From Ignavibacteriota bacterium (GTDB lineage: Bacteria; Bacteroidota; Ignavibacteria; UBA10030), in assembly GCA_022616555.1 (NCBI GenBank), contig JAKEEG010000050.1, positions 1 to 44,180 on the forward strand: 44,180 nt of DNA, written 5' to 3'. Each line of letters starts with the position of its first letter. The first letter of the stretch is position 1. Positions 2,684 through 25,440 of the stretch are shown piece by piece. A program made the position numbers and the translations under genes. The notes beneath the pieces were generated by a model that did not search any database, was not told the origin of the DNA, and saw nothing but the letters and a program-made list of their open reading frames with translations.

Positions 2684-4921
2684 TCAGCTCCTCCACAAAT
2701 ATTGCAGCTTCACAAAGAATTGCCGCTCGGTCTGCGTGACGCCGTGCGGGTTCTCGAAGTCGTACAGATTGTGTGTCGAGCCAGCGTAGAAAATCGTGAA
2801 GGGATTCAGCTTGTAACTGACGAGCGGGTAAAATTGGAACGTTTTGCCGAACTGGTTGTATTCGCCGATGAGCCGGACGAAAAATTCGGGACTAAATTGG
2901 TAAATGCCGACCGCCCGCGCAATGTAGCCGTCGAACAATAGCTGGTCTGTTGCTTTGCTGGTGAGTTCGGAGCGCGAGTAATTGAGGTTCAGTTGGAATC
3001 TACCCGTCGGCTTGATGGTCGCGCTCAGCGTCATGTTGTGTCCTGCGCCGACCTCCGGTGTGTCGCTCCGGTAAATAAATTCCCCGATGTCGCCCCTGAA
3101 GGTAACATTGAGACTGCCGCTTGCCCGCGTTTGCACGTACCAGAACGCGCGAGGGACGTTCGGAAAGTACACACCGCGGAAGAGCTCTTCGTTGAGCGCA
3201 AGCCCGCCGATTTCCCAGAACGTTTGGGCTTTCATCTGCATGCCGGTGCCGAGCACGATCCATCGTTCTTTACGGTGTCCCCAATGATTGAAATGCAGTC
3301 CTCCATTAAAAAATACGTACCCGTTATCGACGACGGCGCCGTTGGGGTAGTAGTTATAATTTGAATTGGCAGTGATAAATCGGGTGTCATTACTTGTCAC
3401 AAACCCGTTGTAGGCATGGAATGTCGGCGTGTACTCGTTGTAGTTGATGCCGTAGTTGAAATCACGGCTGTTATAGTTCAGGCCGATATCGATTGCCGAG
3501 CCAGTATAGGTTTCCCCGTTGAACGCTGCATTATAGTCGGTGTTTCGAAACGTCCTGCCGTTGTTAAACAGCGTTGGGTCGTTCACTTCCTTCGTTGTCG
3601 AAAGAAGCGCTTGCCCACGGAAGTAATAATGTTCCCAGAAGAAATACGTCCAGTCGACGCCGCCGACGTAATTGTATGCAGAGCCGGTGTTGCGCGCGGT
3701 GCCCAGTCCGCCAATAAACGATTGGTTGCCGAGGTCGTAGCGCGCGCGGGCGACGGTTGAGTACGAATCCAAATCGCTGTTGACAAACGAGCTACCTTCT
3801 TCGCCCGGAATGATGAACGTGGAGCTCCTATCCGCTGCCGTCAGCAGGCCAAACGCGAGCGCCCCCGATTTTTCAGTGACTTTCGCGGCGACGACGGGGT
3901 TGTTGATCATGCGGGAATAGAATCCGGAAATGCGCGTATCAAACAGGTCGATGCCCTCCAAGAAAAACGGGCGCCGTTCGGGGTAGAACAGCGCGAATGT
4001 GCTGTTGACGCTGATTTGGCTTGCGTCGGATTCGACCTGACTGAAATCGGGGTTCACCACGGCATCGAGCACAAAGCCCGGGTTAGGGAAGTACTTCACG
4101 CCCAGCCCAAAACGGCCGCGCAGGTCACCGTTCGTAAAACTGGAAGTGGGGTCTTGCCGATTGTTCAGCGCTCCGCTTTGAAGCCCGACGACGTACGGCA
4201 GTGCTTCGAATGCGGATGTTGATTCGACGTCCTCGATGCCTTCGAGCATTCCGCTCTTACACGTGAAGCAGGGGTCGTTGCGGTCGAATGGAGTCCACGA
4301 GAGGAACGCCCTGCTTGTGCGCGGGTAAATTCTCCCAGCCATGAACAGCCAATCCTGCATTTGTTTGGCGGGGAAACGAATACTCTTGAACGGAATCGCC
4401 ATCTCGACGGTCCAGAGTGAATCAGAAATCGCAGCGGCAGAATACCAAATCGCATCCCACGTCTCGTCTTCGTTGTTGGATGTCCGCAGGAGGTCTCCCT
4501 GTACTCCGACGGGGTTGACGACAAACTCGTATGCCCGTTGTTTATCGCCGAACGTGTCGATCATGATGAATGCAAAATCATCGTCGAACATTTTGTCACG
4601 GTCGGTCACATTGGCGCGAAGCTTGGTCATGTCGGTATCATAACAGATGTAGCCGACGTACAGGAATTCTTTATTATAGAGCACCTTAACGATCGTGCGC
4701 TGCGGCGCAGGGATGTTTTCGCCCGGATCGACTTCGTATGGCAGAGGGATTTCCGGAGCGAGAGACCAATGTGGGTCGGTCAGGCGGCCGGTGAGTTCAA
4801 TGTTCCCGTTGATCCGCGTTGCTTTCACGCGGTAGTTGAGTGGATTGGGCGATTCTTGCGCAGTAAGAAGGTTGGTGCCGAGCAGCATGAATACGAACAT
4901 CGCGAGAACAATGCGCTTCAT
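2684..4921 (-). CDS. DUF5916 outer-membrane protein with CBM9-like N-domain
   Basis: This is a 745-residue exported protein. A signal peptide (about 1-21, ending LTAQ) is followed by a carbohydrate-binding-family-9-like beta-sandwich at about 30-230. Its typical string is TGRLTDPHW, then FLYVGYICYDTD, then DRDKMFDDDFAFIMIDTF. The DUF5916 region follows (NPDFSQVESDASQISVNSTF, then YPERRPFFLEG near 315). The remainder is rich in alternating aromatic strands with YNYNSR-like repeats and ends LQYLWRS, as expected for an outer-membrane beta-barrel. The function of the family is not established; it is often considered a surface glycan or ligand protein in Bacteroidota. The start is supported by AGGAGG five bases upstream. 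The neighbouring hexosaminidase suggests, by inference only, a role in glycan handling. Confidence 0.88.
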   Translation of the reverse strand: MKRIVLAMFVFMLLGTNLLTAQESPNPLNYRVKATRINGNIELTGRLTDPHWSLAPEIPLPYEVDPGENIPAPQRTIVKVLYNKEFLYVGYICYDTDMTKLRANVTDRDKMFDDDFAFIMIDTFGDKQRAYEFVVNPVGVQGDLLRTSNNEDETWDAIWYSAAAISDSLWTVEMAIPFKSIRFPAKQMQDWLFMAGRIYPRTSRAFLSWTPFDRNDPCFTCKSGMLEGIEDVESTSAFEALPYVVGLQSGALNNRQDPTSSFTNGDLRGRFGLGVKYFPNPGFVLDAVVNPDFSQVESDASQISVNSTFALFYPERRPFFLEGIDLFDTRISGFYSRMINNPVVAAKVTEKSGALAFGLLTAADRSSTFIIPGEEGSSFVNSDLDSYSTVARARYDLGNQSFIGGLGTARNTGSAYNYVGGVDWTYFFWEHYYFRGQALLSTTKEVNDPTLFNNGRTFRNTDYNAAFNGETYTGSAIDIGLNYNSRDFNYGINYNEYTPTFHAYNGFVTSNDTRFITANSNYNYYPNGAVVDNGYVFFNGGLHFNHWGHRKERWIVLGTGMQMKAQTFWEIGGLALNEELFRGVYFPNVPRAFWYVQTRASGSLNVTFRGDIGEFIYRSDTPEVGAGHNMTLSATIKPTGRFQLNLNYSRSELTSKATDQLLFDGYIARAVGIYQFSPEFFVRLIGEYNQFGKTFQFYPLVSYKLNPFTIFYAGSTHNLYDFENPHGVTQTERQFFVKLQYLWRS

Positions 4922-23080: not shown

Positions 23081-25168
23081 ATGAAGCACGTCTTGCATGT
23101 CCTTATCAATTCTTTGATGAGAAAATGTTTATTCGGTAGTCTGTTTCTATGCCTGTTCTTCGTGGATGCGAATGCCCAGGACGTTCTTGAGCCGATACGG
23201 TTTGAGGTCCCTGTTGGCAGCAATGTTATTCATGCTGGTTCGTACAAGACGTCTGGAGCAGGACACAAAATTGAGTTGTTTGCAACCCAAGCCGCTGTTT
23301 ATGTGTACGGCAAAGCGGCAGTCTGGGAGGCGAATTTGCGCGATGAATTCATTGTCAACTTTTGTCAGAAAACAGACGACCCTACGACATTTTTTATTCT
23401 AACAAGCTGGAACGGTATAGGCGTCACTTACAAATTCACAGTCGATGCTGAGACCGGAGAGATAACCCAACCCGAGGAAGTTGGATCGTTTAATACCGAA
23501 ATGTATAGCTTGAAGAAGATAGCTGGCGATGCGCTGTACGTGTTGGGAAATAATCAAATGTATGTGAGCAGGGATACCGGAGTCACATGGGACATCGACA
23601 CGCTCGGGTTCAACGACGCATACGCGTGGGATTTTTCCATCGATTCCGCTCAATATGTGTACGCTGCCACCGACAAGGGCCTGTTCAAACAACATCCGGA
23701 TTCAAGCGCCTGGCATTTCGTCGATTCACTGTACTACGACTACTTCGGAACGCCATACTATCCAAACCTTCGCTCTGTGTTTGTCGATCGAAATAATCGC
23801 ATTCTCGCTTCTCCATGGTACAGTCCGCATGGCGTTTTCACAAGCACAAACGGTGGAACGACGTGGTCGTACTCGGATCAAGGGATAGAAGGTATCTCCG
23901 TAGGAAATTTTGGTGAGGATGCTTTCGGAAATCTCTATGCTGTCGGTGGAATCGGCGGGGGATCAAATAAATTGTTCCGTTCTTCCGACGGTGGTGTCAC
24001 CTGGGTGCAAATCGATACGGCTATCACCAATCTTATAAAACCAACAGCCCCCGATCAGTTCTTCAACTCCATCGGCGGTGATACACTGCTATTTGCGGCT
24101 ACAGCAAGTGGCTTATTCGTCAGTACTGATCAAGGGGATACATGGGAGGAGGCGAATCAGGGCATTGCTGATGAAAATCCTCTCGGGATCGTCAAGTTAC
24201 CGTCTGGAAGATTTGCTTATGCTGGTACGCATGGCATTTTTACAAGGGAACCTGCTGATACAGTCTGGACAAAAAGATTTCCCGTCGACGGCTATCAGCA
24301 ATTGAACGCGCTCTCGACTGGCGGCGGAAATCTGTTCGCGCTTGCGGAGGATTACTTCAACCTACAGACTCGCATCGTCATACGAAGCACGGACGAAGGC
24401 CTCACGTGGCAGCCCGATACTTCGGGAATCGACAATATCGCCGGCCGGTATTGGTTTGTGAATGAGAATGGCACTCAGCACTTGGGTGATGAGTGGTATT
24501 CCTATGACCCAACAGCGCCGATGTTCTATTCGAAACCATTGGGCGGATCCTGGTCGCCCGACACCGCCGGCATTACTCCATCCGGTATCATCGATTTTCC
24601 CAGAACGATATTCTCGGATAGAAGTGGGTACCTTTATGCCTCGACGTACGAAAACAACATGTTATGGCGAAGGCCAATCGGAGGCGGAACTTGGATGGTC
24701 GATACAATTGGGCTTTCACTCACCGACCCGATTAGCATGGGTGCCGGATGGAACGGCACCGCCTACGCAGCCACAAGTCTATCTGCATATAATCCATCGA
24801 CGCTCCATCGGCGCTCCGGAGGAAGCTGGTCGAAAATGAATCTGCCCGCCGAGCGCAACGCGGATAATATTGATGCGATTTCCGTTGACTCGTCTGGGAC
24901 TCTCTGGGTGGCGTTTTCGAGTTTTTATTTCTTTTTCGGCAGTGGTGTATACTCCACTACGGACAATGGCGAAACATGGACGAACCACGGGCTTGATTCC
25001 GTTAATGTGAATTTCAACTCGCTATTCTTAGGTACATACGGCTTAACGTCATACGGAGATACGACGTACGCGTTGACGGTAAGAAGAGGGATTTTTGCGT
25101 TCACGCAGGATGGCGGTACGACGGCAGTTGAGCCGGATGCCACTTCGCCGCGGAGATTTGCACTGTAG
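23081..25168 (+). CDS. Secreted Asp-box (BNR) beta-propeller protein, cut by an amber codon
   Basis: This is a 695-residue exported protein. The signal peptide is about residues 1-32 (ending DANAQ). Six sialidase-type Asp boxes of the form S-x-D-x-G-x-T-W follow: SRDTGVTW, STNGGTTW, SSDGGVTW, STDQGDTW, STDEGLTW and TTDNGETW. This marks a sortilin/Ycf48-like propeller; such proteins bind or hydrolyse glycans or act as surface scaffolds, and no enzyme residues can be assigned here. The frame ends FAL-TAG and then continues without any other stop into a complete type IX secretion sorting tail (25169-25414). Without readthrough the protein would be exported to the periplasm but not sorted to the surface. 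Promoter and ribosome site are good. Confidence 0.88.
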   Translation: MKHVLHVLINSLMRKCLFGSLFLCLFFVDANAQDVLEPIRFEVPVGSNVIHAGSYKTSGAGHKIELFATQAAVYVYGKAAVWEANLRDEFIVNFCQKTDDPTTFFILTSWNGIGVTYKFTVDAETGEITQPEEVGSFNTEMYSLKKIAGDALYVLGNNQMYVSRDTGVTWDIDTLGFNDAYAWDFSIDSAQYVYAATDKGLFKQHPDSSAWHFVDSLYYDYFGTPYYPNLRSVFVDRNNRILASPWYSPHGVFTSTNGGTTWSYSDQGIEGISVGNFGEDAFGNLYAVGGIGGGSNKLFRSSDGGVTWVQIDTAITNLIKPTAPDQFFNSIGGDTLLFAATASGLFVSTDQGDTWEEANQGIADENPLGIVKLPSGRFAYAGTHGIFTREPADTVWTKRFPVDGYQQLNALSTGGGNLFALAEDYFNLQTRIVIRSTDEGLTWQPDTSGIDNIAGRYWFVNENGTQHLGDEWYSYDPTAPMFYSKPLGGSWSPDTAGITPSGIIDFPRTIFSDRSGYLYASTYENNMLWRRPIGGGTWMVDTIGLSLTDPISMGAGWNGTAYAATSLSAYNPSTLHRRSGGSWSKMNLPAERNADNIDAISVDSSGTLWVAFSSFYFFFGSGVYSTTDNGETWTNHGLDSVNVNFNSLFLGTYGLTSYGDTTYALTVRRGIFAFTQDGGTTAVEPDATSPRRFAL

Positions 25169-25414
25169 CAAAACTATCAGAATCCGTTTAATCCCGCGAC
25201 GACGATTCAATTTGAATTGCCGTCAAACGCTCACGTTCGTTTGAGGGTCTTTGACCTCTTAGGCCGTGAGGTGGCAAGTATAATAAATGAAGAACGCACA
25301 GCCGGTACTCACCGTGTTATGTGGGACGCGGCGCACATCAGCAGTGGCGTGTACTTCTACCGGTTGGAAACGGGCAGTTTTGTACGGACTCTGAAAATGG
25401 TTCTATTGAAATAA
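25169..25414 (+). pseudogene. T9SS-type C-terminal sorting domain, separated by one in-frame TAG
   Basis: In the same frame as the propeller gene, directly after TAG (25166-25168), the sequence reads QNYQNPFNPATTIQFELP, then LRVFDLLGREVASI, then GVYFYRLETG and KMVLLK, with stop TAA. This is the standard Por secretion-system tail; homologues read FxLxQNYPNPFNP, so the TAG stands at an otherwise ordinary residue position. One C-to-T change from CAG would explain it. The tail shows no other damage. TAG is used as a normal stop elsewhere in this window (for example clpX and the genes ending at 11804 and 19393), so wholesale recoding is not supported. Recent nonsense mutation, readthrough (TAG-CAA context) or a sequencing error are the options. 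Confidence 0.85.
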
Positions 25415-25440
25415 ACCCGTTTCAGAGCGCCGGGTTTTTT
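25414..25440 (+). terminator. Terminator overlapping the end of the convergent gene
   Basis: AACCCG (25414-25419) and CGGGTT (25431-25436) form a stem followed by TTTT. It begins on the stop codon of the sorting tail and overlaps the last six codons of the convergent TonB-C gene. Its position after 25414 implies that the transcript normally runs through the sorting tail. Confidence 0.6.

Follow-up and report, generated by a model that had tools for sequence, protein, structure and literature searches.

This locus raises the question of why a single amber codon stands between an exported beta-propeller and the tail that would sort it through the type IX secretion system (T9SS): is a commonplace gene going out of use, or does it yield two forms, one retained and one sorted to the surface? 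The gene lies on the plus strand of the window, by which we mean the whole stretch of 44,180 nt that was analysed.

A propeller gene interrupted before its sorting tail

The frame starting at 23081 is open for 695 codons, up to a TAG at 25166–25168 (ORF list and translation), and codes for an exported beta-propeller protein of 695 aa, similar to BNR and Sortilin-Vps10 proteins (23081–25168). The gene body matches both the Sortilin-Vps10 and the BNR propeller models, with only the former above its cut-off (PF15902, 42.5 bits, cut-off 33), and the N-terminus is a signal-peptide-like stretch, as judged by eye. Past the stop the frame stays open for another 81 codons, until a TAA at 25412–25414, and the junction reads ...SPRRFAL-TAG-QNYQNPFNP...KMVLLK-TAA. 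The sequence, the ORF and its translation thus bear out the preliminary description of a single amber codon between the propeller and its sorting tail and, in the assembled sequence, body and tail are not part of one translated chain. The gene body contains no further lesion besides the junction TAG. Since a single change would turn 208 of the 776 codons of the gene into a stop, a hit at the junction needs no special cause.

The severed stretch (25169–25414, 81 aa plus the TAA) is a type A T9SS C-terminal sorting domain (CTD), which on its own scores above the cut-offs of both TIGR04183 (43.8 bits, cut-off 23) and PF18962 (33.9 bits, cut-off 27). The genome also contains genes for the T9SS machinery, including SprA (1104.2 bits, in one frame) and PorU (966.7 bits), so that a system able to handle the severed tail would have been available. 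The combination of an exported propeller, a recognizable CTD, SprA and PorU is shared with known T9SS substrates carrying type A CTDs (PF18962/TIGR04183); unlike in these, however, a stop separates the CTD in the window from its body, and Gln stands at the place of a near-invariant Pro. Among the 44 PF18962 matches in the genome, it is also unique in lying in an open frame that comprises nothing but the tail (81 aa, the next shortest being of 124).

A terminator had been proposed right after the TAA, which we could not confirm. The sequence at 25413–25437 (plus strand) can form a weak hairpin of seven pairs with a loop of 11 nt, followed by T's, whose predicted energy (-7.5 kcal/mol) is no better than that of shuffled sequences (z -0.58), and the terminator scan, which takes only loops of 3–8, lists none after the TAA. 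A convergent minus-strand ORF ends at 25422. The hairpin lends little support to the TAA as a gene end in use.

The junction codon in relatives

The gene body was used as a query against 31 other genomes of the family and 29 from other families of the order (61 including the window's own), of which 55 gave a match, mostly weak propeller matches. The sole close ortholog found is in genome G006 (contig C24), with 71 % identity over residues 213–695. Its codon equivalent to the TAG is CAG, and the sequence reads FALQ|QNFPNPFNP straight into an intact tail; the simplest history is therefore one C-to-T transition. Homologs with the same architecture and 32–43 % identity likewise have sense codons at the junction (AAC, TCG, GAA, CTT, TTT, TAT, and TTT). 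Within the family (31 other genomes), copies occur only in G006 and, with 39 % identity, in G023, a patchy distribution suggesting that the gene is probably dispensable. Searches for relatives gave none in viral contigs and no match in plasmids, and identified 16 loci in genome contigs, none of them close (best-segment identity of 23–40 %).

The ortholog in G006 is itself broken, separately, by a net 4-base deletion with respect to the window that brings a TAG into frame at around residue 213 (ca. G006:C24:8450), so that both known close copies are damaged, in different ways. This lesion is situated around 3440–3460 of locus L041 (G006:C24:5000–10780).

Window and G006 sequences show 72 % identity both in the tail and in the body after the G006 lesion, with pN/pS values of 0.20 for the tail and 0.23 for the body. 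The tail value, which is pairwise and mostly reflects the time before the stop arose, is close to that of the body, indicating that purifying selection acted on the tail for most of the time since the two sequences separated, and until recently. Together with the CAG of the ortholog and the otherwise intact tail, this matching divergence supports the earlier proposal of a very young event. As read from these comparisons the event is young; the saturation of dS between both sequences means that it cannot be dated.

These results suggest that the locus quite probably represents a recent nonsense truncation or an early pseudogene, in an otherwise ordinary gene that is going out of use. A transition from CAG (Gln) to TAG where the body of a T9SS substrate gene meets its tail would have left a truncated protein that the cell still produces and that its signal peptide directs to the periplasm but that, without the C-terminal sorting domain, is not expected at the cell surface. 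The tail would then be beginning to lose constraint, as the Pro-to-Gln change described below might indicate, in a gene that is patchily distributed, probably dispensable and, in its sole close ortholog, disrupted by a frameshift of independent origin. The stop, the sense codon of the ortholog, the second change, the T9SS genes and the patchy distribution are observed; that the protein stays in the periplasm, that its function is lost and in which order the two changes arose is what we infer from them. As in young nonsense-truncated bacterial pseudogenes, there is a single stop in an intact frame, in one lineage, with a sense codon in the ortholog, where the inactivating lesion is absent, and a second change downstream. 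It differs from them in the position of the stop, immediately ahead of a sorting domain, so that the body may still fold and persist with its export signal lost. The absence of other lesions in the body and the good preservation of the rest of the tail count against decay. A truncation of this kind matters little in itself, but it is a reminder that a frame which stays intact beyond a stop should not be taken for a functional one.

The main rival to a truncation is a strain polymorphism or a base-call error, whereby the TAG of the contig would reflect a miscalled base or a strain in the minority, with an intact gene in the population. This is possible, albeit rather unlikely: the assembly is a draft (99 contigs, 97.97 % complete) and the CAG of the G006 ortholog is one transition away from TAG, but a lone miscall would not explain a second unusual change only 10 bases downstream (25178–25180).

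A second change in the severed tail

The motif past the stop reads QNYQNPFNP, with a CAG codon (Gln, 25178–25180, plus strand) replacing the near-invariant Pro of QN[YF]PNPFNP. We searched this pattern as DNA, with and without the Pro, in 98 genomes of the order, and the Pro was kept in 7279 of the 7287 matched motifs, the window being one of the eight exceptions. The tail had been described as showing no other damage, which this substitution contradicts. Six of the other seven tails without Pro (L108, L118–L122) lie in visibly broken genes, defined as those with an upstream open frame of less than 50 codons, with stops further up; these are orphan or broken tails. The exception (L117, from G013, with Ser for Pro) has an intact gene upstream, and so the position sometimes tolerates change. 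As a control we examined 30 motifs with Pro from the same seven genomes, one of them limited by a contig end, and found a short upstream frame in none of the 29 assessable (Fisher p 8e-7, for seven of the eight tails without Pro, window included, vs 0/29). As far as these counts go, loss of the motif Pro is associated with broken genes, an association that does not in itself prove loss of function of the window product. Because tails lacking it lie mostly in broken genes, this Pro may offer a simple means of recognizing T9SS tails in decay.

The window tail had also been called a perfect sorting domain, which is nearly right: it scores above both cut-offs and ranks fifth of 30 in a leave-one-out profile (28 other tails from the same genome, the window tail, and that of G006), with no decay visible by profile score among these 30 sequences, but it carries Gln for the near-invariant Pro. 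According to a structural study (PMC10994853), the conserved motifs of the CTD determine how it folds and make no contact with the translocon, except for a near-invariant Lys near the C terminus; this residue appears to be kept in the window tail (KMVLLK, with a putative assignment of the Lys). A review (PMC10202324) additionally describes that the last 22 residues of one CTD are enough for secretion of GFP and, by analogy with that case, the Pro-to-Gln change in the window may be harmless.

Readthrough and stops before other tails

The alternative of a functional readthrough supposes that UAG-C is misread, for instance by tRNA-Gln CUG, often enough for a minor part of the protein to reach the surface while the major part stays in the periplasm. 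The tail frame is indeed open and was under purifying selection in the past, a tRNA-Gln with anticodon CTG is present in the genome and, as reported in PMC5289835, tRNA-Gln misreads UAG in E. coli and a C at position +4 raises readthrough in yeast. A stop just before an in-frame targeting signal is likewise found in the dual-localisation readthrough genes of fungal and animal enzymes (PMC4207609). Whereas in programmed readthrough the stop is conserved among orthologs, here it is replaced by CAG in G006 and by sense codons in the homologs and, unlike in the dual-localisation genes, the tail is changed at a near-invariant residue, the Pro just past the stop.

The RNA around the TAG did not fold better than shuffled sequences (z -0.44), and the folding of the stretch just after it was not significant (z -1.81, with 12 of 200 shuffles folding as well). 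A tRNA with a CUA anticodon was not found among 36 tRNA matches, a list that is incomplete, as it has no tRNAs for Trp, Tyr, Asn or Ile. The absence of these four tRNAs from the matches of genome G000 probably corresponds to assembly gaps.

Stops directly before the motif are rare, occurring in three of the 7287 motifs (the window TAG and two TAA), and never in an ortholog. The search at position -1 gave, besides the window, 15 matches (13 TGG and the two TAA), and that at position -2 gave no stop in the 98 genomes; among the tails inspected, Leu is the usual residue at -2, and fewer single changes turn Leu into a stop. The TAA of G051 (L116) is at a contig start, where the tail breaks off. 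That of G077 (L115, G077:C301, 1509–1511) arose independently, follows 502 open codons and likewise falls where the body of another T9SS substrate meets its tail; because its near relatives G036, G069 and G070 have sense codons at this position (GCG, CAA and AGC), it is an isolated nonsense codon. A recurrent arrangement of a stop before the tail within the order was thus rejected, G077 being the one assessable case.

With sense codons in relatives, a rare and unconserved stop, no suppressor tRNA found among the 36 matches, and a changed Pro, the idea of a functional readthrough or of a two-form switch is left unsupported, and we consider it very improbable. There would be an equally slim chance that, through a leaky UAG-C, the propeller made from this one gene is periplasmic but for a small fraction exposed at the surface, as a T9SS substrate sorted by readthrough; were it true, such a substrate would be divided between two locations by a novel route. 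We found no literature joining type IX secretion and readthrough in the one repository searched. Since tRNA-Gln misreads UAG and +4C raises readthrough (PMC5289835), a low level of leakage is possible, by analogy, in any gene ending in UAG-C, and would not amount to a programmed function.

A reassignment of the amber codon was also rejected, because no CUA tRNA was found in the incomplete list of 36 matches and TAG terminates five of 30 genes in the window and seven of 29 tail frames retrieved from the same genome; these counts confirm that TAG is a normal stop elsewhere, as had been indicated.

Lastly, an adaptive truncation, in which keeping the protein in the periplasm would be advantageous and loss of the tail therefore useful, is hardly credible: the body has no other lesion and the stop is exactly at the domain boundary, but a hit there needs no special cause, the same truncation is seen in no relative found, and cases of a single nonsense codon at the junction are isolated.

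Elsewhere in genome G000, contig C31 contains two T9SS tails with identical scores on opposite strands, ca. 115 bases apart (62382–62606, plus strand, and 62721–62945, minus strand), which would represent either an inverted duplication or an assembly palindrome.
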